DNA from: Citrus sinensis
Lineage: Eukaryota; Streptophyta; Magnoliopsida; Sapindales; Rutaceae
Assembly: GCF_022201045.2 (NCBI RefSeq)
Contig: NC_068559.1
Coordinates: 2,888,501 to 2,952,500, forward strand
Reading direction: 5' to 3'
DNA: 64,000 bases
Shown here: piece after piece, positions 12,323 to 63,299 of the stretch
Layout: every line of letters begins with the position of its first letter
How positions within the stretch are numbered: the stretch's first letter is position 1
Notes under the pieces: generated by a model
Seen by the model: the letters and a program-made list of their open reading frames with translations, nothing else
Databases searched by the model: none
What the model was told of the DNA's origin: nothing
Translations under genes and position numbers: made by a program

Positions 12323-12850
12323 TTACAAAAACCAATCAACTACGGGAGCCGCTGCCTTGTTGCTGCCAAGCCTATGACACTCCAGATCATTCTCATATGG
12401 AGTCAAGTTCAAATCCAGGCACAAAACCCTTCTGCTATTGGCTTTCTTCACCAACGGCGCCGTATCGGAAAGAGTCAAAGTTGACACTTTCTCATTTCCA
12501 TGCAAAGCAACCGCCCTGTGTCTCCTCATGTGCCCACCTAGGGCTTGGCCTATTGCAAACTCAAGCCCGCAAACTGAACATTCATGAGTCCTGGGTTTCG
12601 CTGGCGACTGCTGCGTGTCGGCTCCTCCTCCGGTACCGTCCGTTAGCCTTGGCTTCTTGTGGCTCGCCCTGTGCCCCCCCAGAGCTTGAAACGATGGGAA
12701 TTGCCTGTTACATGTCTTGCACTCGAAAACCCTACCAGCCGCCGTCATATCAACGCTGTTGACGGCGTCAAAGTGTCCTCCTTGTGACATAAACATCAAG
12801 CAGTTAGCCATGTTTAAGCTATGATCAAGCTCTTGAAATGTTCTCTTCAT
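12323..12850 (-). CDS. C2H2 zinc-finger repressor, ZAT11/ZAT12-like, array copy 1
   Basis: Single-exon gene, 175 aa. Two plant-type C2H2 fingers: [19 protein letters not shown]...H (about residues 42-65) and [19 protein letters not shown]...H (about 89-111). Both carry the QALGGH DNA-contact motif. A C-terminal EAR repression motif lies in [14 protein letters not shown] (about 144-157). An L-box-like hydrophobic N-terminus (MANCLMF) is also present. By family these are nuclear, stress-inducible transcriptional repressors; the target genes cannot be read from the sequence. The start [14 protein letters not shown] is shared with both paralogues, which supports it. The tail is extended (...AAAPVVDWFL) relative to copy 3. 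A TATA element lies about 135 bp upstream. Confidence 0.92.
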   Translation of the reverse strand: MKRTFQELDHSLNMANCLMFMSQGGHFDAVNSVDMTAAGRVFECKTCNRQFPSFQALGGHRASHKKPRLTDGTGGGADTQQSPAKPRTHECSVCGLEFAIGQALGGHMRRHRAVALHGNEKVSTLTLSDTAPLVKKANSRRVLCLDLNLTPYENDLECHRLGSNKAAAPVVDWFL

Positions 12851-18196: not shown

Positions 18197-18733
18197 TCAC
18201 GCACACAATTCCAGATTAACCAGACTATCTACCTTGTTACCAAGCCTAAACGTTTCCAAATCATTCTCATATGGAGTCAAGTTCAAGTCCAAGCATAAAC
18301 CCCCTCTGCTATTAGCTTTCTTCACCAACGGCGCCTTGTCCGAAAGACCACTCAAATCTGAGAGTTTCTCATTTCCATGCAAGCCAGCAGCTCTGTGTCT
18401 CCTCATATGGCCACCTAGGGCTTGGCCTATAGCAAACTCAAGCCCACAAACTGAACATTCATGAGTCTTGGGTTTTATCGGCAACTGCTGCATGTCGACT
18501 CCTCCGTTGCCGTCCGTGAACCTCGGCTTCTTGTGGCTCGCCCTGTGCCCTCCCAGAGCTTGAAACGACGGGAACTGCCTGTTACACGTCTTGCACTCGA
18601 AAGCCCTACCAGCTGCCATTGTGTTAACGCCGTTAACGGCGTTAAAGCCCCTCCCATGCGACAAAAACATCAAGCAGTTTGCCATGTTTAAGCTGTGATC
18701 AAGCTCTGATGATTCTTGAAAAGCTCTCTTCAT
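18197..18733 (-). CDS. C2H2 zinc-finger repressor, ZAT11/ZAT12-like, array copy 2
   Basis: Single-exon gene, 178 aa, start [17 protein letters not shown]. Two C2H2 fingers, [19 protein letters not shown] and [19 protein letters not shown], are identical to copy 1 across these motifs. An EAR motif lies in [14 protein letters not shown]. The C-terminus diverges after RLGNK into [10 protein letters not shown], so the stop is later than in copy 3. By family a nuclear repressor of stress-response genes. The coding sequence is clearly more conserved than the spacers, consistent with purifying selection (judged by eye, no dN/dS run). Confidence 0.92.
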
Positions 18734-24706: not shown

Positions 24707-25213
24707 CTAATTACTGCCAAGCCTATAAAATTCCAAGTCATTCTCATATGGAGTCAAGTTCAAATCCAAGCACAAAACCCTTCTGCTGTTAGCTTTCTCC
24801 ACCAACGGTGCCGTATCCGAAAGACTACTGAAAGCTGAGAGTTTCTCATTTGCATGCGAAGCACCCGCCCTGTGTCTCCTCATGTGCCCACCTAGGGCTT
24901 GGCCTATAGCAAACTCAAGCCCGCAAACTGAACATTCATGAGTCTTGGGTTTCACCGGCGACTGCTGCGTGTCGGCTCCTCCTCCGCTGCCTTCCGTCAC
25001 CCTCGACTTCTTGTGGCTCGCCCTGTGCCCACCTAGAGCTTGAAACGATGGAAACTGCCTGTTACATGTCTTGCACTCGAAAGCTCTATCAGCTACCGCC
25101 ATGTTAACGCCATTAACGGCGTCAAAGTCCCCCCCGTGTGGCATAAACATCAAGCAGTTCGCCATATTTAAGCTGTGATTAAGCTCTGTTGGTTCTTGAA
25201 ATGTTCTCTTCAT
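24707..25213 (-). CDS. C2H2 zinc-finger repressor, ZAT11/ZAT12-like, array copy 3
   Basis: Single-exon gene, 168 aa, start MKRTFQEPTELNHSLNM, ending ...EFYRLGSN. Same two-finger layout ([19 protein letters not shown] and [19 protein letters not shown]) and EAR motif ([14 protein letters not shown]) as its neighbours. Serine-rich linker (KLSAFSSLSDTAP) before the EAR region. It lacks the 10-residue tails of copies 1 and 2, probably the ancestral length given the shared RLGSN/RLGNK junction. The proximal promoter is shorter than in the others and the TATA context is changed. Confidence 0.92.
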   Translation of the reverse strand: MKRTFQEPTELNHSLNMANCLMFMPHGGDFDAVNGVNMAVADRAFECKTCNRQFPSFQALGGHRASHKKSRVTEGSGGGADTQQSPVKPKTHECSVCGLEFAIGQALGGHMRRHRAGASHANEKLSAFSSLSDTAPLVEKANSRRVLCLDLNLTPYENDLEFYRLGSN

Positions 25214-32815: not shown

Positions 32816-35800
32816 TCAAGGAGGCAATTTTCCAGATAAGTAGAGAGAAAGGTTATCTCTCATTACAGAGGCAGTCTTGTCGACAGATTCGCAGGTTTGT
32901 TGATGATAACCAGAGTCGTGATGATATGACAAGGGCAGCTCATCTAGCATTTCATCCTCCATGTCGATGACAATGTTGTGCAGCAAGCAGCAAACAAGGA
33001 CAATCCTAGGCAATCTGTTCTTATCAGGCATCCACATTACTCCATGAATTATCCTCCATACATCCTTAAGCCTTGCTAGAGCCATCTGTGCCACCATTCG
33101 CGTAGCAGAATGTCGTTTGTTATACTCAGCTTCAATATCAGAGAGGCCTTTCCCTTGGTAGGGAGTAAGAAGCCATGGCAATAGGGGAAAACCTGTGTCC
33201 CCTATTATGTATTCTCTTAATTCTATTCCTTCTGAAAGCTGTAAACTCTTCCCATCAAGCCTTTTCCCTTCTTCAGTAAGTTTGAAGAAGCCAGAGTTCC
33301 GGAGAACAAGAGCATCGGTTAAACTTCCTGGCCAGCCAGCGATTATGTCACGAAATCTCATCTCTGGGTCCACGATTCCCTGCAGGATCATGCTATAGTT
33401 CTTCTCACGATCATACCAGACATTATTTGCTGGGTCCACTGCTGGTATATTCATGACAATGTGCGTAATGTCTATTGCACCACAACAGTTACGAAAGCCA
33501 CGAATTTTCTCAAATTTGGACTTTATGTCTTCCATTTCTGTTTCTTTTGAAGGCCATTGGAGATGATGGAGCCCTCTTTCTTCCATTGATTCCACAAACC
33601 GCCAGGTTACTTGGGAAACAGTCGACTGGTTCAACCCAAATAAATCACCAATGATTTGTAACGATTCGCCAGAGCTAAGCCTCCTAAGGGCAATGGCTAC
33701 CATATCATTTGGCGATAGAGGCTTTCCATTTGAAAAGGAGAAATTTGATTGCCTGGCTGCCAGATCTTCCTTCACAAGTGAGCATATGTAGTCGAATGTC
33801 TTTCTCGATATTTTAAAAACAGATTCAAAATTCTTTGATTTTTTCGATCCAAATAAAGGACCTATAAAGTGGAAGAGACAATATAGTCACTTGTGCATAT
33901 GCGAAGCTCTGAATTTCATGTCAACTTTCATAGTGAAAATAAAAGAACATCTAAAAGATTAACTGTAATAAAACTAAAGTGTAAGGAAGGTGAAAGCAGT
34001 TAAAGTCATACTAATTTAGAGATCAGCCCTACCAACATAAGGTAGCTATATTACAAACCTTATTTCAGAAAGAAAGAGGATAAGTTGCTTTGCATCTAAA
34101 AATGGAAGAACAAGTACTATGATTTTACTTTCCAAGTGAAAATCTACACTGATAATGTACTGAAAAGCATTCACCAAAGTCACTGGAAATCATACACTTT
34201 ATCATATAATAGCCTTGTATATGAATTTCCAAATGCATATTCTACTATCAGTTTTTCTGGTTTACATGAGCATAAACAATTATCAGATCTCACATCTCAG
34301 CAATCAAGACTTAACTGACTAAAGCTCACTAAGACACCTTGGTGTCCACATGGTCAATTTTATACCTTCATGTGGATTATTAACAATCCTACCAGTTCAA
34401 TACATGAAGTTCCATTTCATCTATTGGAAGGCCTTAATAAAATTTTATATGAAGGTATAAGAAGAAAGTAGAAAAGTTCTTCACTACTGGTCCAAAAACT
34501 GTATTGAGTGAACTAGGAAGGAAACTCTGCCCACCCAGTGCAAAAGAAACCCCACCACCCCAGGCCCTCAAAAGAATAATGTATGGATCATTTAGAAGAG
34601 ATTGATTGACCACTGCTTTGAGAATTCGCCGTATGCAAGGAGGCTGCGTAAAACATTTTGAGAGGATTTACTAAAAAGTATGTAATTTATTACTATATTA
34701 GTTCAAATTCCTAGGTCTGTTACTGAATAAGTACTTCAACCACACTATTAACTGCACACCATCAAGTTTCAAGATCTAATTATATGACAAATTACTATTT
34801 AGATCAAATTCCAGACTCTCTTATTCAAATAAGTTCTTCAACTGCACAAGTATCCAGCACACCATAAATTGTCAAGGTTGTATGGAACTAAAAGGACAAG
34901 GTTGGATCAGTACATCTTCTGGACTTGATACTCAAGGTGCTATAGAATATTAGCATCAATTAGTCCTAAGCACTCATATTATGATAGTCAAGTACAGATG
35001 ATGACAAACACCAATAAAGTGGTTTTTCTTCCAAGGATGAATGCATTTTTCATTCAACATAAATCCCTTGATCACCCATCCACCATCACCTAGAGCTATG
35101 TCCTAAAGTAAGTCATTGATAATCATGGCTTAACTCACGTAAATATGTCTTGACCTACTATTGTTTTCAAAGCAAAATCAACCTGAATACCGCCACCATT
35201 TATCCACATATAGGTGGGTATGGTTCTTCAGCATAAATCTTACCAAGTTAAGGGAGAAGATAACAAGAAATGAGGAACATATGATATTTTGGCACAAAAC
35301 TAAACTATGTTGTATCAAAATGATAATATTCAACGGAGAAAATCTATAGCTTAATGAGATCTTCACTTTGTGAAAAAAGACAGTGGAAACAGACTGTGAA
35401 CGAACACAATACCATGCAACTCCTATAAACTTATATTTCTATGGGGGCAATTGATGATACAGTGTTTACTAATCAGTTACATTATGTATATGCATGTCAA
35501 ATAAAACTGTAAAACAGTGATGAAATTACCCTCAAATATAACATTACATACAGCCTCAACCTCATATATTCATATTCAGAACTTCTAAAAGTTAGATACA
35601 ACCATAGTAATAGCTGCTAAAGTTAGAGATTCAGTAAGGTGGATCCAAAGTTTAATTAATAACAAATCCAAGAGAAAAGGGATTTTTTTTTCCTTGAAGT
35701 ACATATTTGAAATCTGATAAAATAACTGGATGACCAATATTCTAAGATCCACTAAACTCATAGGCTAACAAGTAAATAAAAGGCCTCATATTCCCAGTAA

Positions 35801-44870: not shown

Positions 44871-46370
44871 ATGAATCTCATCATAGTATATAACCAATCT
44901 TTTTGGAACAGATTGATCATAACGAGAGAAGAAAATCCAGTTGATCTTCTTAGCAGTCTACCAAATGACATTCTATGCTGTATTATTTCATTGCTCCCTT
45001 TCAAATCTGCTGTTAAAACCAGCTTCCTTGCGACCCGATGGAGACACCTTTGGAAGATAACTTCGGAGAGAACTGGAACATTAGATGATGCCGTTGATGC
45101 TGTTTTTGACTTCTGTGAAGACTTTTATTATGAGCTAAACAATCTACAGGGACTTCAATTCAACTTTGGCAAAGGCAATGTGCTATTATGCTCTGTTTCC
45201 CCGGGTGGTAATAAACTTCATCTTGATTTTTCAACCGGGAAACAAGAATGTCCATTGCTTTTTTGTTGGGATTTGGTCATAAATTTCAGAATCCCTTCCA
45301 GTGAGCCCCATCATTGTATCAAGTTAATAAAAAATCTTCACTTAGTATCAGTAATGCATCATACTGCTGGGGTGATCTCATCATTAGCTTCAAAATTCCC
45401 ATTTCTTGAAAGCTTTACTATTGCAAAATGCAGAGGCTTATAATCTTTATCTATTACTGCAACTCCAAGGCTTTTGAAATTATCAGTCTTTGATTGCCCT
45501 GGCTTAACATATGTTCGCATTACAGCCACCTGTCTTAAATCTTTGAGGTATAGAGGGCTTTTTCCTGAGGTTTTGAGACATTATGGTCGGTCCATGGAAG
45601 ATGCCATGCTTGATTTGAGAAAAGGTCCGAGTAATAGCATCGATGATTTTTACTTTGGCCCAAAGCTATTTTCCTTGAGAAGTGCTAAAACTCTTACACT
45701 ATGCAGATGGACTTATGAGGTATATGCGTCGATCAGTTTTTGTACTTTCTAGTTAGCTCGCTAGCTCGCTTTGCTTTTCTTGTCCCATTCAACGGAGGGA
45801 CGTTTGATATCTAAACCTTTTTGTTGCAGGCATTGATTTACCCACATCGCAGGGTACAATTTAGAAAATTAGAGGAGTTATGGTGGATTGATTATGAGAA
45901 TGATGAAAAATACAACAGTGATGCCTTAATCTCCTTCCTGAAACTTTGTCCTTTGCTAGAAAGACTTTCAGTAACTGTAAGATTTTGTTGCAACTTTGGC
46001 TGAAATTTTGTAGTCAACACTGGTTCACCAAAATCAATTTCTCCTAATCATGCAGATTAGTCCAAAACCTGGAAGACTGACAATACCATGTGCTTGCTCG
46101 ACTCAATTAGCCGACGATACAATACCCAAGCAGCTCAAGTTTGTGAAATTGGAGGGTTTTAGAAATGAAGAAGATATGATCTCATTGGCGAAGCAGTTGA
46201 AAGAGGTGTTCTGTTTGGAGCCAAAAATTGTAGCAACTTCAAAGGAGATTTCTGTGAGGAGTCTGGTGAAGGCATTGGAGTTTCAGGAAGGGGAATCTGC
46301 TTATAAGTTTGTGAAAGAGGTGAGACATATTAATCAGTTATGCCCTAACCATCCTCATATGAGGCTTTAG
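44871..46370 (+). pseudogene. F-box/LRR/FBD gene A, one in-frame stop
   Basis: Exon 1 ends 45719 (donor GAG|GTATAT), exon 2 is 45830-45976, exon 3 is 46056-46370; all introns are phase 0. F-box: LLSSLPNDILCCIISLLPFK then SAVKTSFLATRWRHLWK. LRR-like beta-strands follow, then ELWWIDYEN and an FBD-like tail (KFVKLEGFRNEEDMISLAKQ). The frame is open except for a TAA at 45441-45443 in the sequence reading CRGL-stop-SLSITATP, where copy C has CNGLRTLYIDSN. Otherwise the gene is aligned with B and C throughout. So it is a recent loss, an allele, or an assembly error; the truncated 190-residue product would retain only the F-box. F-box proteins couple substrates to SCF ubiquitin ligases (family knowledge). 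The exact start is uncertain: an acceptor GGAACAG at ~44911 suggests an upstream exon I did not find. Confidence 0.75.
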
Positions 46371-46382
46371 CAATGAGACTTA

Positions 46383-47095
46383 GGCCCCGTTTGAGATTGA
46401 GGTTGAAACTCAATAATCTGCTTATTTTATAATTTTTGATAAAAATAGTGTTTGGTAAATTTTGTAAAAGCAGCTTATCTCATAATTTTCTTCATTTCGT
46501 CAGCAACTATTAAAAGTAGGTAGATGGTTGTTTTTCATAAGCAGCCAACTTATTCAATAAGCTCATACGCCTTTTTAAAATACCTAATATAACTTTACTA
46601 TTTTGATAAAAAGACAATTATTTCGTACTTATTTATAAACTTTAATATATAAATCATTAGATATTATATTACTACCACAATTTTATTGCAAAAATTTATT
46701 GTGAATGCAATACATATTACTTTTTATTTTATTTAGATTATATAAAAATATAAATTTTTATCATATTTTATGTAATAGATTATGAAGTTCTTCAGATTTT
46801 TCTTAATTGAGTTTTTTAAATTAATTTTACATATTTAAGAAAAAAGTATGTCTAAACAATTTATTAAATATAAAATAAAAAATAATTAAAACTTATATCC
46901 ATTTTGGTCATTATATAATACAACAACACTTTCTTAATAAGATTTACCAAACGCATATACTCTATTTTTCAAACTCACAGCAACCGCAACAGCACAGTTT
47001 ACCAAACATCAAGCTACTTTTTTAATCAGCAGCTTATTTCATCTGCACAGCACAAACAGTTTATTTCATCAGCCTCCGTAATTCCAAACTGATCC
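46383..47095. mobile_element. MITE-like element, family 1 relative, ~710 bp
   Basis: The left end GGCCCCGTTTGAGATTGAGG pairs with the reverse complement of the right end, GGATCAGTTTGGAATTACGG. Subterminal repeats GCAGCTTAT...CATAATTTTC and TTTTTAATCAGCAGCTTATT are also inverted. It sits immediately after the stop codon of F-box A. No coding frame. Confidence 0.6.
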
Positions 47096-47214
47096 TTGAT
47101 CTTAGTTTTGTAACTTTGAAAGGAAAAATTTGTGCATGAAAGGCATTTTGGAAGAAGAAGCAAATATAGATTGTTTCTTATATTCAACACCGGCTAGATT
47201 ATTGTTTATAGTAG

Positions 47215-47335
47215 ATACAAGCTTTTGGAGGCAAAAGCATTTATTTAATTCAAAGTAAAGTGCTTGGTAACCATTTTAAAAATAACATATACTGGATAAT
47301 TAAAATAGACAATAGCCTTGCTGCAGTGCAGGTGG
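47215..47335. repeat. Module boundary repeat, second copy
   Basis: ACAAGCTTTTGGAGGCAAAAGCATTTATTTAATTC-type text, also CCTTGCTGCAG, matches the segment at ~41320-41480 downstream of B3-like copy 1. It shows that the B3-like gene and its 3' flank were duplicated together. Confidence 0.7.
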
Positions 47336-47814
47336 TTAGTTTTCTTGAACCTGCACACAAAAGCCAAAGCAAATTAAGCCAAGCATAATCTGCATCCTAA
47401 GTAAACATAATGTGTATACACATATTAATGGCTGTTACCCTTTGAATAAGTAAGCTGATGATTTCTCCTTTAACACACCAACAACCGATTTTATCATTAA
47501 TAGAAAAGCCATTCACTTGGGCAATGCCATTGTACTCACACCAGGTTTGTTTCGCTACCCGGTAGTAAAACTTATTTTTCTCTCTAACGCGCCGCTATAA
47601 CTACATAATCAGCAACCGCCGCTGGTGTATAAAGCTTAACCAATAGTCCATCTTCAAATATCGACTCTGGAAATTCATTGAAATAATTAGTTGTGCTTCC
47701 CGTGAGACGCAAAGCATGATTCAGATCACCATATGTCAATTTTTTCCTAAATAAGTATTTGAGTTCTCCAATTTGAGGATAATTTTGAATTTGATTTGGT
47801 TGAGGATCCTCCAT
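47336..47814 (-). pseudogene. B3-like copy 2, frameshifted
   Basis: Exon 1 spans 47439-47814 and starts MEDPQPNQIQNYPQIGELKY, LFRKKLTYGDLNHALRLTGS, strongly like copy 1. After VVIA the frame shifts by one base (exon length 376 nt, not a multiple of 3, near 47596). Beyond it the expected reading returns in another frame: REKNKFYYRVAKQTW ... YNGIAQVNGFSI ... GCWCV ... ISLLIQR. Donor AGG|GTAACA and a 15-nt terminal exon (47336-47350, VQEN-stop) are conserved. The rest of the gene is well preserved, so the break is recent or a sequencing error. Confidence 0.7.
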
Positions 47815-47847
47815 TTTTTTCCCTAGACAATGTTAATTAAATTTTCT

Positions 47848-47857
47848 CTTTATATAG
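47848..47857 (-). promoter_or_regulatory. TATA box of B3-like copy 2
   Basis: CTATATAAAG on the minus strand, in a promoter segment conserved with copy 1 (AGGTTAACAAGAACTGCATG versus AAGTTAACAAGAATTGCATG). Confidence 0.6.
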
Positions 47858-48274
47858 CAAAGGTTAACAAGAACTGCATGTGAATAAACTAGCTAGCTAG
47901 CAATGAATTGCATGATTCATGTAAAAGAAATAATCAACAAGCATTATATTGCCCAACTGACAACTAGCTGTGATGCCGTATTACAAAATTCATACAAAAG
48001 TTTACAAAGAGTGGCATCATATTTGTTTAACAATATTAGATTTATGCAGGTACTTTGAGAGTCTACTCCTTATTGTAATCATACTAAAATTAATTACAGT
48101 GAACTACATAGGTACTATCTCTACATTAATCTTGGAACGTGAAATTAAAGACATTTTCACCCAATATAATCGAAAATTACCTAAATCATACAAATACAAA
48201 AAGGAAAAAAAAAGGGTCAAGATTATGATTGATTTGCATAGATTGATTGTTCCTCTCATTCAGTTTCCTTATTC

Positions 48275-48530
48275 AAAAGTCTTCACTTCAAAATCACATC
48301 GATGATGTTGGTTCATCTCTAGTTTCAAATGTCCTATTTTGTTGAAAGTTCAACTATTGCAAAACGCAAATTGGGTTACAATGTTTACACCTTAAGGCAA
48401 GTTCAAGGCCTTGCAATTTTCGGTCTATACTTGCCCACAGTTAAAATATTTTAGTTTTATAGCTACCGGACTTAAATATTTTTTATTTCAAGGGCTACTC
48501 CCCATTTTTAGATGCCATGCTTTATCTTTA
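48275..48530 (+). pseudogene. F-box/LRR relict fragment
   Basis: GTCTTCACTTCAAAATCACA ... TTTCAAATGTCCTATTTTGT, then TGAAAGTTCAACTATTGCAA, GGCCTTGCAATTTTCGGTCT and AGATGCCATGCTTTATCT align in order with 45340-45615 of F-box A (TCTTCACTTAGTATCAGTAA ... TTGAAAGCTTTACTATTGCA ... GATGCCATGCTTGATTT). Several stops and indels; no F-box remains. A fossil of a fourth cluster member. Confidence 0.65.
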
Positions 48531-49141
48531 AAAAAAAAAAAAAAGTCATGGTGATTGGTTTTTTTTTTTTTAATAGTTTAATCTGATGGACTTTTTGAGG
48601 CACTTCTGAAATCTTTGCACTTTTCCGTTAATTTAATACTAATTCATACTTGTCACAGTATTGGTAGTGATTCAGTCTCACTGTGAGCATTCTTTTTAGA
48701 AGTTTGTGGAAGAAGAAAATAGATCAATGAATTATGCCTTATGCATCCTTCTTCTATGATTTTATGCAATTATCTAAATTAAACACAGTTTCTTAAAAAC
48801 CATTCGATCAAATTCTGGGGACAAAGAAGATTAAACTGTAAAAGTAAGTACTTCAACAAATAGATTATTGTGGCTATTTCAAATACCTTATTTTTTCTTA
48901 ATATAAATATACATATATAGTTTTTTTTCTGGTTCCTTCCTTCACAAGTAATTCGGATTATTTTAGGATTTAGAAGCTACATAGGTTACAAACTCTTGAT
49001 ATCCAGAATTTTCTTTTAACAAAAATAAAAACTCCGGAAACTTTGTTTCCGTTGCTTTATTATATATATGCAAGTCACAGCTTCATTGAATCAATCAAGG
49101 AAAAGAAACTCCAAAACAAGGAGCGGCAGAACCGAGACAAC
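48531..49141. other. Intergenic / promoter of F-box B
   Basis: AT-rich. TTATTATATATATGCAAG at about 49057-49075 could provide a TATA box for F-box B, roughly 70-85 bp before the ATG. Confidence 0.35.
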
Positions 49142-50691
49142 ATGCACAATAACATTCTTCCTGAAGAGTAAGGACTTAAAGAGCTTGTACCTGTGTTTTA
49201 TGTTTCTGTTCTTCTTTAATTAGTTTCAACTTGACATATTGTTTTGCGTTTTTGTTTTTCAAAAATACAGAAATCAAGTTTTTGAGGGGACGAAAGATGA
49301 GGACTTCATCAGCGAATTACCAGATGATATTCTTTTCAGGATAATCTCTCCACTCCCTTATGAAACTCTAGTACAGACCAGAACTCTCTCCAAGCGTTGG
49401 AGAGAGTTATGGAAGAGGGCCCCCGATTTCTGTGGAACAATTGATGGTATCCCAATTGTGATCACTTCCCTTCTTGATCCGTTTTACAGGCAAACAGCTA
49501 CGCATAATCATCGCGAAGTCCAGCTTCACTTTGGCCACAGCGGTGGTCTTCTTGCCACCATTGAAGATAATGGGACACTTCATTTAAATTTCTCTGATGG
49601 AGGACAGGAAACTCGTAAGCATTTTGACTGGCGTTTAAATCTCAATTGTCGGTTCATAGTCCCAAAGGCATTTTCATTTGGGTTTCAATCAGTAAAATCC
49701 CTTCATTTAAATTGTGTCAACCATCTCACCAAGGAAAAAGTTTCTTTCCTTATTTCATATTTGCTTCTGGAGAGTTTGCATATCACTGATTGCAAAGGAT
49801 TGTGGTCACTTTTTATTCATTGTAGTTCCAGTCTTAAGACCTTGAAAATTGTGAATTGCCTTGCGCTGAGAGACATCGATTTGTTCACAGACAAGCTGGA
49901 GAATTTGTGTTTCCAAGGAAAAATTCCCTGGTTATGGCTCCATGGCATGCCTTTCTTGGAAAATGTCATGTTTGAAAGTCCTCCATGTTCAGATTCTTGT
50001 CGTCCAAGTCTTCTGCAAAGTCTAGTCAGAGTGGTAAATGTTAAAATTCTTACGGTATCTGGTTGGCTTTTTACGGTAGGTACTATTGCCTTTGCTTATC
50101 TTGGAGCTTGTAAAGTATACTTCGATTTGAATCTTGCTTATTGACCCAGTTGATGTTTCAAATTTTTTGTTTGATCAGGAAGCACTCCGGATTCGACCTG
50201 AATTCATAATGAAGCAGAACATCCTGCTAAAAAATTTGAAAGAGTTAAGGTGGATTGAAAGTTCAATGGACAATCTCAAGATAGATACCTTAATTCTATT
50301 CTTGTCAATCTGCCCTTCTTTGGAAAAGCTATTCATAAATGTAAAGATTCTTTGTTCGCTTTTTTCAATTCCAGCATACTGCGGTTTACTGAATTTCTTT
50401 TGTTCTTTTATCCCTTGACTGATTGTTTATATATGCTTATTATCTACTAAGTTAATTCCTGTTCATGATTTTCAGATGGATGCTACTAATTATGACACTC
50501 CAGTTGAGACAATCCCCGCAATCTACAGGGATGCATTGACTAACAAGGTCAAAAATACATGCTTAAATAATCTCAGGGTGATAAAATTTGAGAATTTTAC
50601 AAATGAGCACGATGAATTTAAATTAACAAAGCGTCTGCAAAAGGTAGCTTCCGTTGGGGCGATCTTCTTGACAACACCAAATGGAGAATGA
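49142..50691 (+). CDS. F-box/LRR/FBD protein B, 402 aa, four exons
   Basis: Exons: 49142-49167 (MHNNILPEE start), 49271-50075, 50179-50340, 50476-50691; 1209 nt, 402 aa plus TGA. All donors are GT and acceptors AG, and the phases close. The F-box is in FISELPDDILFRIISPLPYE then TLVQTRTLSKRWRELWK (about residues 19-55). Leucine-rich strands follow (SVKSLHLNCVNHLTKE, LESLHITDCKGLWSLFIHC, LKTLKIVNCLALRDIDLFTD), then an ELRWIESSMDN segment and a short FBD-like tail (LRVIKFENFTNEHDEFKLTK). Probably an SCF substrate receptor; substrate unknown. The most diverged of the three cluster members, and open throughout. Confidence 0.82.
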
Positions 50692-51596
50692 AGAAAGAAC
50701 AAGAATCAACTTGAGATTTTAGAGTGTTATTGACAGTTCAAGCATCATCTGTAAAAGCTGCAGCATGAATTCAGGAAATGCAGTGTTGATAGTCATATGT
50801 ACCAAACTTTGCCGAATAGAAATTTGGCTCCTTTAGAGCTCAATGAATGATTTTTGTAACATGAAATGAATGAGACTAGGCTATTACAAGTAGTCTGTTT
50901 TATATAAATGGTGTTCCAATTCATAAACAGCTAGTGCTAATCACTTATTTATGCATTTCTTGATCCGAAAGCCTTTTTCTGTGTTTAATTGATGATTTTT
51001 TATTTTTTATTTTTTGGGTCCAGAACTTATGTGTATGATCAGTTTCTCAATGAGACCTGGTCAATGAAATTTCACATATTTGCAGTTGATCATGTACTTT
51101 TTCCTAATAGAGCAGATAAGTTGTTCGGTATGTTCCAAGCACTTCAGTGTCTTACACACATACTCTCATAGTAACCAAAAAGCTACTTCTCTGACTTTTT
51201 GTTAACATTATATGATTTTCTTCATATTAAGTGTATCTTTGTCAAACAATAGTTCCACACTCAATATATTCATTGGATTATGAGACTTTATTAAGGCAAT
51301 CAAATGCCATTTCTTGCGCTCTTAGCTTCATCATGAAAAAGCAACCAAGTCCTATTAGTGACTCAAGAATAAATTAATGTAGTCAAATCCTCCTGCGATA
51401 TCTGATTATGGATTGCACGCACGACTTTAATCCATATACAGTGCACTTATGTGTATATAAATCACTTGGCGCAGTTAGGAGCAACCTCTATCCTTACAAT
51501 TCACATTCCAAAGTGAGTAATCCTTTTTCTTCACTTGTTATTAATTGTTTCCGTAATGTTGACTAACAAACGTTTTGCATGTATAGGAATCCGTTT
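50692..51596. other. Intergenic / leader of F-box C
   Basis: No gene recognised. A short frame at 50989-51171 has no family resemblance. A likely 5' UTR intron ends at TGTATAG (51586), as in gene B, where a short exon precedes the F-box exon. Confidence 0.4.
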
Positions 51597-53030
51597 ATGG
51601 AAGAAACTGCAGGTGATATAATTAGCAGCTTACCAAGTGAGATCCTTTTTCACATAATATCTTTACTCCCTTTTGAATCTGCAATCCAAACCATTTTTCT
51701 GTCAACGCGGTGGAGACTTCTGTGGAACATGGCTTTAGTGCAGAAGCATGGAACCAAGGAAGATGTTGCTTCGGCAGTTTCTCAGTTTCTTACAAATTTC
51801 AATGAGCATGATCCGAGAAAGAATACAAGGAGATTTATGTTCCACTTTGGCAAAGATAGTATTCTCACAGCTATTATTGCACCAAATAATAAACTTCATT
51901 TGCATTTCTCTGCTATAAAACAAGAATTTCCGCGGCGATTTGGTCTAGTTTTGGAGCTGAATCCTCAAAATCCTATCCACCAACCAAATCCCCCAGCCTT
52001 CTTTGTTAAAACTCTAAATCTAAGTTCAGTTAACTATCTTTCCAATGATATTGTTTCCTCTATAATTTCGAGTTTTCGGTTTCTCGAAAACTTGAAGATC
52101 AGTGGATGCAATGGACTAAGAACTTTATACATAGATTCAAATACAAAGCTTCTAGAGCTTACAATCTTCGATTGTCTTCATTTAAAATCTGTCTGCATCA
52201 AATCTCCTAAACTTAGGACTCTCCGATATAGAGGGCCACTTCCTTGGTTTTGGCCTGAAAATCACTATAACCTGGAAGATGCCATGCTTGATTTTAGGAA
52301 AGGTCCTGGTTATAGAGGCTTTGAGAGCTGTGATTTTGACCCGGTTCTATTGACCATTAAGAATGCTGAAGTTCTTACACTATGTAAATGGACTTTTGAG
52401 GTATGTCTCGAAGAAATAAAGTATATTTTGAAATGTTGGTTTAGAACTTTTTATGTTATTTTGCGTCACTAAACAGTTGAACTTCTAAAACCTCTTGTTT
52501 GCAGGCATTGATCTGTCCATCATTATCCTCTGTAGAAACAGAATTCCAATTCTATAACTTAAAAGAATTGTGGTGGATAGATAATTCGTCTGAAGGATAC
52601 AGTAGTGACTCCTTAATCACCTTCCTGAAACTGTGTCCTTCTTTAGAGTCTCTCTTCATTACTGTAAGTGACTCTATCCGTAAACTGCATAATAAGTAGG
52701 ATCAAGTGCTTTGAATAGCTAACATTTCGGGTACTTTTGAATCTGCAGAATGATCCTGAAAGCTACCACATGGCAAGCACAGCCGCATGCTCAAAACAAG
52801 TTGGCAAGCATTCAGAATTGGGAAATCTCAAAGTGGTGAAACTGGAGGGATTTTTAAATCAAAATGATGAGATCAAATTTGCTGAGCATTTACAAGAGAT
52901 AATCACTGTGGATCCCCTCATTCTAGCAACATCTGATGGAATTTGTTGGCGGCGTTTGGTAATTCCATCACAATCACAACAGACAAAGCAGGGCGTGTCC
53001 AACTTGGAAGTGCTAGCAGCCACACAATAA
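51597..53030 (+). CDS. F-box/LRR/FBD protein C, 414 aa, three coding exons
   Basis: Exons: 51597-52400, 52505-52663, 52749-53030; 1245 nt, 414 aa plus TAA. Start at MEETAGDIISSLPSEILFHI. The Met six codons earlier (51579) spans a likely acceptor (TATAG|GAATCC), so it is not used. F-box ~7-45 (IISSLPSEILFHIISLLPFE ... TRWRLLWNM). LRR strands include LKISGCNGLRTLYID, LLELTIFDCLHLKSV and LRTLRYRGPLPWFWPE. ELWWIDNSSEGYSSDSLITF follows, then an FBD-like tail (LKVVKLEGFLNQNDEIKFAE). Closest to gene A. Probable SCF substrate receptor, substrate unknown. Fully open. Confidence 0.85.
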
Positions 53031-60709: not shown

Positions 60710-61243
60710 GACGATTGATGCTAAAGGTGCATCTATTGGAAGTCAGGATGTGGTTGATAAATAAGCATTCATTATTTTCTGTTTTAATTACCAAGCGTAA
60801 GTTACTTTTAAAATAATTAAAGCGCTTTAGAATTAAATAAAATGCTTTTGGCTCCAATGGCTAGTATATCGCAGAAATTTTAGAATTTTGGACTATGGAA
60901 ATATAATAAGCGTATTGTTTAACGTAATGAACCACAGAATCTATTAAAACAAACACACCCTTTGAAGAAATTAGCCTTCACTGTTGTATTTACAGAATTA
61001 GAACTTAACTAAAACAAACACACCCTTTTGTATCTATGAATTTGTGTTTGGCTTACTTTCCTTTTGTCATTCGGTAATTAAAATAACCCTTATATAGAGT
61101 TGTTTTTGCGTTCAAACTCCATAATCAAACGGTATCCCTGCAGAATTAAGAAACGAAAACTCTTCGATATAAAGAGCCTAGAAAAGAATAACCATTTAAA
61201 TAAATTAAAAACAAATTATTGAGTCGTAGCTTCCTTTTTCACG
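60710..61243. other. Intergenic / promoter of the ClpB-like gene
   Basis: A 20-bp direct repeat ACTAAAACAAACACACCCTT / ATTAAAACAAACACACCCTT occurs near 60945 and 61009. No other gene. Confidence 0.4.
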
Positions 61244-62737
61244 ATGAAAGAACATAAGTTTCTGGTGAAGGAGATGGATAATCAAATAGTATCATTAGAA
61301 AAAATCCATCGTCTTCAAATTCAAGACGAAGCTCTCTTTTTAGCCTCTCGTATTGCTCAGCATCCAAGAAACAAAGCTACCGGTGAATTGCGTGAAAGAT
61401 TCATTGATATTCTTTTAAAGGGTATCAAGCGCTGCTTAAATAGTAGAGATAAGTATCAAAAAGAACTCGATAAACACAAGTACTTTCTCCGGCGAGCGGT
61501 GGTTGAGTATGAACAACTTGTTAAAGAAGATACTGATCATAGCAGTAGGTCTTTTTGGCTTCGGCAGATTGACAATGAATTGAAGGATGCCTTTTTTGAG
61601 TTGGTTTCGTTTATGAAGTTGAGAATGCAAGTGGAATATGATGATTTTGTTTCTTGTGTGCATGATGCTAAGAGAATGAAGGATTATTCAAAGATTCTTG
61701 ATCAAATTGATGCTAGGGTTCATGGGAAATTCAAGGAAAAATTGGCCGTTGATGTTGAAGAAATCGCGTTTGTAGCCAGTAAATTGACTGGGATACCGGC
61801 TTCCTGGTTTTGTACTAAGCCTGAAGAAAGATACATGAGAGTTCAAGAACGGTTGAAGAAGAGAGTATTTGGACAGAATGATGCAATTGATGTAATTTTT
61901 GAGGCCTTGACGAAGCCAAAAGCCGAAAAAGGATTATCATCGAGGCGGCAATTAGGGTTGTTTCTCTTTGCCGGTCCGAATTGTTCGGGTAAGGCAGAGC
62001 TTGCTAAAGCCATTGCCAATGAGCTTTATGATAATAATGACAATGACAATCACCTTATTCACTTTGATATGGGAAATTATACGGAGCTTGAGTCAATTAA
62101 GCATTTTTTTGATTCACTTGCTGCATTGGTGAAAAAAATGCCTTATAGTGTGGTACTTTTCGACAAGATTGAGAAGGCTAATTCCTCTATTCTTAATCTC
62201 TTGCTTAAGATTTTGAAAACAGATTTTAATCAAAAGGCAACGAGAGGGATTGCTGCCTTTGATCTTACAAACACATTGATTATCATGACATCGGATTTGA
62301 AAGATGAACAAGTGTATGAAGTGATGCTAACTGCTACTTACGGGAGGGTTAATGAAGTGACAGGAAGCTTATTTAAGCCTAGTTTGCTTAAGCTGTTGGA
62401 CAAATTGGTAGTGATTGATTTGGCAGTTCCTTTATTGGATACCACTCGGCTTTTGCTTAGAGAATGGGCGTGTGAAGAAACAAAGAGAAGAAATAACGAT
62501 AGTAAAGCTGTGATTGTGTGTGCTTCAACTTCAGCATTAGTACACATAGCATCAAATGCTGCGAGGAAGTATGGCCAAAACGGGGAGGGATTGAAGAGGT
62601 GGGTGGATCAGAGAGTGATTTTTCCTATGACGTCAAAGATGATTGTCGAAGATGATGGAGTTGCGGGAAACATCACTGTTTACATTGACCTTATTGAGGA
62701 GATAGGAGAGCTCTCGTTTAATTTGAAGCGCAACTGA
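61244..62737 (+). CDS. Solo ClpB/HSP101 D2-like AAA+ protein with altered ATPase residues, 497 aa
   Basis: One uninterrupted exon. Residues 1-165 are helical and charged, with no clear domain. From ~168 it follows the second AAA+ domain of ClpB/HSP101: DVEEIAFVASKLTGIPASWF, then RLKKRVFGQNDAIDVIFEAL, LFLFAGPNCSGKAELAKAIA, PYSVVLFDKIEKANSSILNL and LIIMTSDL. The C-terminal small domain ends YGQNGEGLKRWVDQRV ... ITVYIDLIEE. Key positions differ: Walker A GPNCSGKA (Thr/Ser after Lys is Ala, 251); Walker B LFDKIE (Glu to Lys, 308); sensor 1 TSD (Asn to Asp, 351); Arg finger region LLKLLDK where family has NRLDE; sensor 2 GAR replaced by GEG. The pore loop GYVG segment is absent. The N domain and D1 are missing. 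Likely a retro- or segment-derived, non-hydrolysing relative; function unknown. Met11 (61274) is an alternative start. Confidence 0.8.
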   Translation: MKEHKFLVKEMDNQIVSLEKIHRLQIQDEALFLASRIAQHPRNKATGELRERFIDILLKGIKRCLNSRDKYQKELDKHKYFLRRAVVEYEQLVKEDTDHSSRSFWLRQIDNELKDAFFELVSFMKLRMQVEYDDFVSCVHDAKRMKDYSKILDQIDARVHGKFKEKLAVDVEEIAFVASKLTGIPASWFCTKPEERYMRVQERLKKRVFGQNDAIDVIFEALTKPKAEKGLSSRRQLGLFLFAGPNCSGKAELAKAIANELYDNNDNDNHLIHFDMGNYTELESIKHFFDSLAALVKKMPYSVVLFDKIEKANSSILNLLLKILKTDFNQKATRGIAAFDLTNTLIIMTSDLKDEQVYEVMLTATYGRVNEVTGSLFKPSLLKLLDKLVVIDLAVPLLDTTRLLLREWACEETKRRNNDSKAVIVCASTSALVHIASNAARKYGQNGEGLKRWVDQRVIFPMTSKMIVEDDGVAGNITVYIDLIEEIGELSFNLKRN

Positions 62738-63031
62738 TCATCGAGTCATATGCAATTATGCATGCTGCTGCCTGGCTTCATATTTTTGACTCAATCAGTC
62801 ATCGAAGTGCAGTTCTTTTAATTTGCTAATTTTTCATTATGTCTTTTTCAATATTCATTTTTTATTAGTAACTAAGTAAAATCATAGCCAGAAAAATTTA
62901 AGCATATAGTTGTTAATTGCTGTTCAATTCTTCAATGTTTTTTGGTTTGTCCTTTTTTCAATTTGAAAGTGCCTTGCAAATTAAATTGAAGCTTATGTAA
63001 TCAAGAAAGTTATCAAGATGAAATAAAATAT
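62738..63031. other. 3' flank of the ClpB-like gene
   Basis: Probable 3' UTR, then AT-rich spacer with no gene. Confidence 0.4.
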
Positions 63032-63299
63032 TGGGTGCATTTGGGATTGAGGTTGGGTAGCTGTAACTTTTTAAGTAATAACACTAAAATGTTTGATAAA
63101 CACTTATAACTTGAAAGTTATGTTGATATGAATTTTCATTTATATGATAGAAAATCTATTATATCTTTAATAATTTTGTCAAAATTATTATTTAAAATTT
63201 ATATTTATTATATATAATTAAATTTTATTTTATAATTACAATTTTTTTCCACAATAGGTGTAATTTAAAAGTTACAACACTTCAATTACAAACAAGACT
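63032..63299. mobile_element. MITE, family 1 copy 4
   Basis: The left end GGGTGCATTTGGGATTGAGG pairs with the reverse complement of the right end, GTCTTGTTTGTAATTGAAGT. The interior shares GAAAATCTATTATATCTTTA and TTGTCAAAATTATTATTTAAA with the 3.5-kb copy, in the same orientation. Confidence 0.75.

Follow-up and report, generated by a model that had tools for sequence, protein, structure and literature searches.

An intronless HSP101-related gene of Citrus sinensis with changed D2 ATPase landmarks and a reading frame that appears to be maintained

Pseudo-enzymes of the AAA+ and other P-loop families keep the fold and lose the catalytic residues while their sequence is maintained. In ClpB, the D2 small subdomain packs against the large subdomain of the adjoining protomer. 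The residue following the Lys of Walker A helps to hold Mg2+. One report describes the middle (M) domain of ClpB/Hsp104 as being in contact with NBD2 and as making disaggregation with Hsp70 possible (PMC3887210). The SMXL (SMAX1-LIKE) proteins of plants are characterized in another report as atypical Clp-ATPases with a double Clp-N domain and a D1 domain, which carry an EAR motif as well as Walker motifs and in many cases also contain RGKT (PMC9133912). Here we describe a gene from a 64-kb stretch of Citrus sinensis DNA (the window, 64,000 nucleotides in full), which is best explained as a protein-coding member of a small plant family putatively derived from HSP101. A search of the PMC literature found nothing on this gene or its family.

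The window gene and its degenerate D2 module

The window gene (C4; positions 61244-62737, + strand) is a single intronless frame of 497 codons plus stop, which runs from ATG to TGA with no internal stop, and within the window this frame is the sole match to itself at a meaningful E-value. Its best solved relative is rice ClpB1 (9ip0; phmmer E=7e-37), which aligns over residues 361-862 with residues 19-494 of the window protein, and identity to HSP101/ClpB1 is about 30%. Pfam still recognizes the D2 core as AAA_2 (E=4.4e-18), all other Pfam matches being below threshold. A significant D2 sequence match, the feature expected of ClpB/HSP101 descent, is therefore present in both searches. The N domain and a complete D1 are absent, as the protein begins at the equivalent of residue 361 of 9ip0.

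The D2 large AAA+ subdomain (residues 168-392; 61745-62419, + strand, delimited by Pfam, phmmer, profile and model) is degenerate at each of the landmarks compared, all of which lie on the + strand. In Walker A (GPNCSGKA, 61973-61996), Thr251 after the Lys is replaced by Ala; the GAPPGYVG pore-loop segment is missing at a junction between residues 291 and 292 (62116-62117; phmmer and alignment A1); in Walker B (VVLFDK, 62150-62167), Glu308 is replaced by Lys to give FDK; at the sensor 1 position (TSD, 62294-62296), Asn351 has become Asp; and at the Arg-finger position (62393-62395) NR reads KL, with Arg384 replaced by Leu. The sixth change lies in the D2 small subdomain (residues 393-497; 62420-62734, + strand, delimited by comparison and model), where the GAR of sensor 2 reads GEG, Arg448 being replaced by Glu (62585-62587). 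Residues 384 and 448 are taken to be the Arg-finger and sensor 2 positions, respectively. All six altered positions are at least 90% conserved in alignment A1, which comprises the window protein and 68 bacterial ClpB, and the HSP101 of C. sinensis itself (L023, on C3) retains all six. None of the D2 features of a functional disaggregase, viz., the Walker A Thr, Walker B Glu, both sensors, the Arg finger and the pore loop, is kept in the window protein; Gly249-Lys250 of Walker A and Asp307 of Walker B are retained. The earlier note had claimed an open 497-codon intronless relative of an AAA+ D2 in which all ATPase landmarks are changed, and both the frame and the changes, six of six, are confirmed here.

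The same note had described the N-terminus as helical and unrelated, which is not borne out. Against a ClpB profile, residues 19-133 align in register with the portion that covers D1-small and M. The profile was built from 70 bacterial ClpB loci and A1 from 68, both drawn from the best 80 of 585 confirmed relatives in genome_contigs; L096 was excluded by choice, and the others failed the cutting pattern or were too short. Residues 1-165 alone score 12.3 bits against this profile (E=2.9e-6 for one sequence); the highest score among the shuffled sequences for which one was reported (459 of 500) is 7.2 bits, and the reversed sequence scores -1.8. Plain phmmer of residues 1-165 against the six paralogue pieces of C. 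sinensis listed no match. On balance, residues 19-165 (61298-61738, + strand), helical in the model, probably represent what is left, in diverged form, of the D1 small subdomain and the M domain.

An AlphaFold model computed on the ClpB alignment (mean pLDDT 77.8, pTM 0.64) has long helices at the N-terminus and best matches ClpB chains (1qvr, E=5.2e-22, rmsd 11.6), a match that is not independent, as the input alignment contained ClpB. Its D2 core corresponds to ClpB NBD2 (4lj4, TM 0.79 by the target's length). A single-sequence AlphaFold model was set aside (mean pLDDT 39.9).

Other frames in the window include three intronless C2H2 zinc-finger genes that resemble one another and lie one after the other on the - strand (12323-12850, 18197-18733 and 24707-25213; Pfam on the first), each with a 10-residue stretch near its end. 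An open frame of 319 codons (32816-33775, - strand) matches the Harbinger-type DDE_Tnp_4 (E=4.2e-30) and may be a domesticated transposase, since Gln stands at what we take to be the place of the third acidic residue. Three clustered open frames on the + strand (44871-52472) resemble F-box/LRR genes, and the middle one, on which alone Pfam was run, has an F-box and AtMIF1-type LRR.

Parentage and relatives in the same genome

The HSP101 gene has four introns in the aligned stretch, as inferred from tblastn pieces, and the window gene has none. This absence of introns together with the missing 5' half points to a processed, truncated copy. Among six paralogue pieces HSP101 scores highest (129.1 bits, the next 98.2). 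Two other routes to the parent were abandoned: the tree gives the window row no place, its branch amounting to 10 changes per column, and diagnostic sites (8 with HSP101 and 9 with organelle-type ClpB, and also 9 against 8) favour no side. A DNA-level origin from a ClpC-type gene may be compatible with the intron evidence taken alone, because in ClpC-type genes a single exon accounts for most of the aligned region. We suppose that the ancestor was a processed copy of HSP101 (cytosolic ClpB), truncated at its 5' side and starting near the end of D1, so that the hexamer-forming N domain and D1 would never have been present.

The surroundings of HSP101 on C3 include an adjoining diverged copy (L024, C3:7965000-7974000), whose D2 still shows gaps resembling introns as well as in-frame stops. 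A third D1 fragment there carries a stop (C3:7981942-7982055). Read by these features, the HSP101 neighbourhood is a decaying tandem array.

Besides the canonical Clp genes, the same genome has four relatives of the window gene, viz., a copy on C1, two on C2 (C2a and C2b) and a stretch on C5; a scan of viral_contigs (11 stretches) found no relative. The C1 copy (L019:2720-5026) is identical in DNA to the window gene at 597 of 759 positions in the 5' half and at 667 of 952 in the 3' part. It has three in-frame stops among 433 aligned of the 497 codons, and 11 of the 21 listed indels have lengths not divisible by three. It also shows a gap of 91 nt and carries an insertion of 657 bp (L019:3476-4132), and judged by these lesions it is a pseudogene. 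It shares with the window copy the Walker A Ala, the Walker B Lys, the loss of the pore loop, the Arg-finger Leu and the loss of sensor 2, and has Lys in place of the Walker A Gly. It keeps the sensor 1 Asn, the change to Asp being private to the window copy. Since five of the six lesions are common to both, most of the ATPase loss is older than the split between C4 and C1.

By blastn, the similarity between C1 and the window gene extends from 7 bases before the ATG to position 63032, 5 bases past an AATAAA (63022-63027, + strand) that is the first after the stop, at 285 bases. Further upstream the similarity is weak (score 50, equalled by 7 of 300 shuffles), and we therefore withhold the claim that C1 is a retrocopy of the window transcript. 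At 76 bases upstream of the ATG there is a TATA-like box (61168-61173, + strand), and such a hexamer occurs 76-93 bases before the ATG in all four copies compared, which is weak evidence because the DNA is AT-rich. These signals are compatible with a gene and are no proof of transcription.

The two C2 relatives, C2a (L020:2671-3468, - strand, 265 codons) and C2b (L021:2730-3476, - strand, 248 codons), are both open and 67% identical to each other. Each aligns collinearly with the window gene in two blocks (E of 2.8e-17 or lower), one pair covering residues 52-166 and 378-495 of the window protein and the other residues 47-173 and 401-494. The missing middle is the D2 large AAA+ subdomain; the D2 small subdomain is retained. 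Pfam finds no match over the cutoff on C2a or C2b. If the window gene were not at hand, these proteins would be difficult to classify, and their N-terminal parts alone remain below significance against the ClpB profile. The C5 stretch (L111, C5:541000-546000) holds the N part only; the segment around it is duplicated and has 91-92% identity with the C2a locus.

Selection and the function that may be retained

Pairwise omega between C4 and C1 is 0.52 over 430 codons, with omega=1 rejected (2dlnL 14.8), and between C2a and C2b it is 0.66 over 232 codons, with omega=1 not rejected (2dlnL 3.56). The neutral distance between C4 and C1 amounts to about 0.35 per site, from which orthologues would be expected beyond the genus. 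A branch model of four taxa (the window copy, C1, C2a and C2b) gives omega of 0.20 on the window branch, 1.07 on C1, 0.68 on C2a, 0.61 on C2b and 0.56 on the internal branch. Neutrality is rejected on the window branch (2dlnL 7.17) and fits the C1 branch (0.01). On removal of codons near indels, window omega is 0.21-0.22 with 2dlnL against omega=1 of 6.34 to 7.57, and none of 40 parametric bootstraps under omega=1 reaches the observed 6.34. The data do not reject one shared omega, estimated at 0.555, in favour of five separate values (2dlnL 4.47, 4 df), nor omega=1 on the C2a and C2b branches jointly (2dlnL 4.32). Under neutral change at 0.19 per site, C2a would be expected to gather 5.8 stops and C2b 5.5, and a frame free of stops arises in 0.3% of 300 runs for C2a and in none for C2b; at 0.1 per site, the proportions are 3.7% and 7%.

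Both a catalytic loss predating the duplication and later purifying selection are thus found for the window gene, with limited power and by comparison with paralogues of the one genome. Within that power, the sequences show that after the C4/C1 split the window copy was retained under purifying selection and the C1 copy decayed, and the gene appears to be kept intact by selection. The claim that the frame represents a maintained pseudo-ATPase and not a decaying copy gains support from the open frame beside a wrecked C1 copy of the same age, from the five older lesions and from omega of 0.20-0.22. Its companion, that the losses were coordinated, fails if a single event is meant, because C1 still has the sensor 1 Asn. 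On the note's suggestion of a scaffold or a decoy subunit of HSP101, these results bear only indirectly.

We consider it quite likely that the window protein is a maintained protein without ATPase activity, and somewhat probable that it belongs to a maintained HSP101-derived family whose function lies outside the ATPase. The sequences show that residues for nucleotide hydrolysis (Walker B, sensor 2 and Arg finger) and the pore loop for substrate pulling had gone from its D2 by the time of the C4/C1 duplication. Two further members lack the AAA+ large subdomain altogether, and their open frames encode M-like helices together with the D2 small subdomain. As the C2 relatives persist without the large subdomain, the retained function plausibly resides in these two parts. 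The protein may be a non-hydrolysing binder, whose most likely docking partner would be HSP101 or the HSP70 that works with it, and which would limit or tune disaggregation. Docking on HSP101 is proposed because of the contact of the M region with NBD2 and the packing of the D2 small subdomain on a neighbour's large subdomain, and by this analogy HSP101/HSP70 is put forward as the target only tentatively.

A scaffold in an unrelated process, outside the chaperone field, is a serious possibility, though not the one we favour. The extreme divergence of the window protein would suit it, as would the upstream DNA, where the best heat-shock element in 400 bases fits 7 of 9 places and is equalled by 388 of 500 shuffles. 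Most conserved blocks of the family likewise consist of residues other than those conserved in ClpB. Nothing speaks directly against such a role, but the retained parts are those that make contacts within the ClpB/HSP70 system.

A more specific version of the HSP101-derived family is speculative and, in our estimation, unlikely to hold in full. Truncation to M plus D2 would have been followed by loss of catalysis and of the pore loop and then, in the C2 members, by removal of the large subdomain, so that M-like helices came to be joined to the D2 small subdomain, the family capping or tuning HSP101 spirals as a non-firing subunit, with the window gene as the intermediate that ties the C2 proteins to HSP101.

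It is rather improbable that the window gene is a retrogene in the course of being lost, one that worked until not long ago and now drifts with a frame left open by luck. Its sister C1 is dead, only the window branch has lost the sensor 1 Asn, and a model in which the C4 and C1 branches have the same omega is not rejected (2dlnL 3.44, or 3.0, 2.34 and 2.52 with codons near indels removed), all of which would fit drift. However, omega=1 is rejected on the window branch, and a neutral window branch of the fitted length, 0.18 per codon, would be expected to gather 4.2 stops at 0.06 changes per site and is free of stops in 1% of 300 simulations.

A maintained nucleotide sensor, in which ATP bound through the Walker A Gly-Lys and the Walker B Asp is not hydrolysed and binding acts as a switch, would suit the retention of Gly249, Lys250 and Asp307 and of a D2 core that is recognized by Pfam and modelled as ClpB NBD2, but is quite improbable, given the Ala after the Walker A Lys, the sensor 2 Arg replaced by Glu, the Lys for the Walker A Gly in C1, the two C2 relatives that do without the entire module, and a pairwise omega that is highest in the AAA core (0.63 against 0.47 and 0.51 in the other parts), where constraint is weakest, though the difference is not significant.

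If the preferred reading of an HSP101-derived family with a function outside the ATPase is right, a single genome holds several stages, viz., a live HSP101, a copy with a dead ATPase and copies without the ATPase module. One could then test what use the various parts of a disaggregase have in the absence of the motor, and a regulator of plant heat tolerance could come to light.

Comparison with known systems

The window protein is collinear with HSP101/ClpB1 to the end of D2, probably from the D1 small subdomain through the M domain onward, and HSP101/ClpB1 is its best match both among solved structures and among the plant's own paralogues. It differs from HSP101/ClpB1 in that the gene lacks the N domain, the D1 large subdomain, introns and the C-terminal tail, and in that all six D2 ATPase landmarks are changed. 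With the SMXL proteins it has in common that it would be a plant ClpB-like protein outside the disaggregase role, and there is a weak match to SMAX1 (E=1.4e-4); unlike them, it has neither a double Clp-N domain nor D1. No DLNxxP or RGK(T/V) motif was found in the window protein, and its LxLxL-type strings at residues 237 and 317 lie inside the D2 core. It is neither a working disaggregase nor an SMXL, the latter because the double Clp-N domain and the EAR motif are absent. Its closest parallel in kind is with the AAA+ and P-loop pseudo-enzymes, as the fold is kept, the catalytic residues are gone and the sequence appears to be maintained, but unlike these, the family of the window gene also has members without the whole ATPase module.
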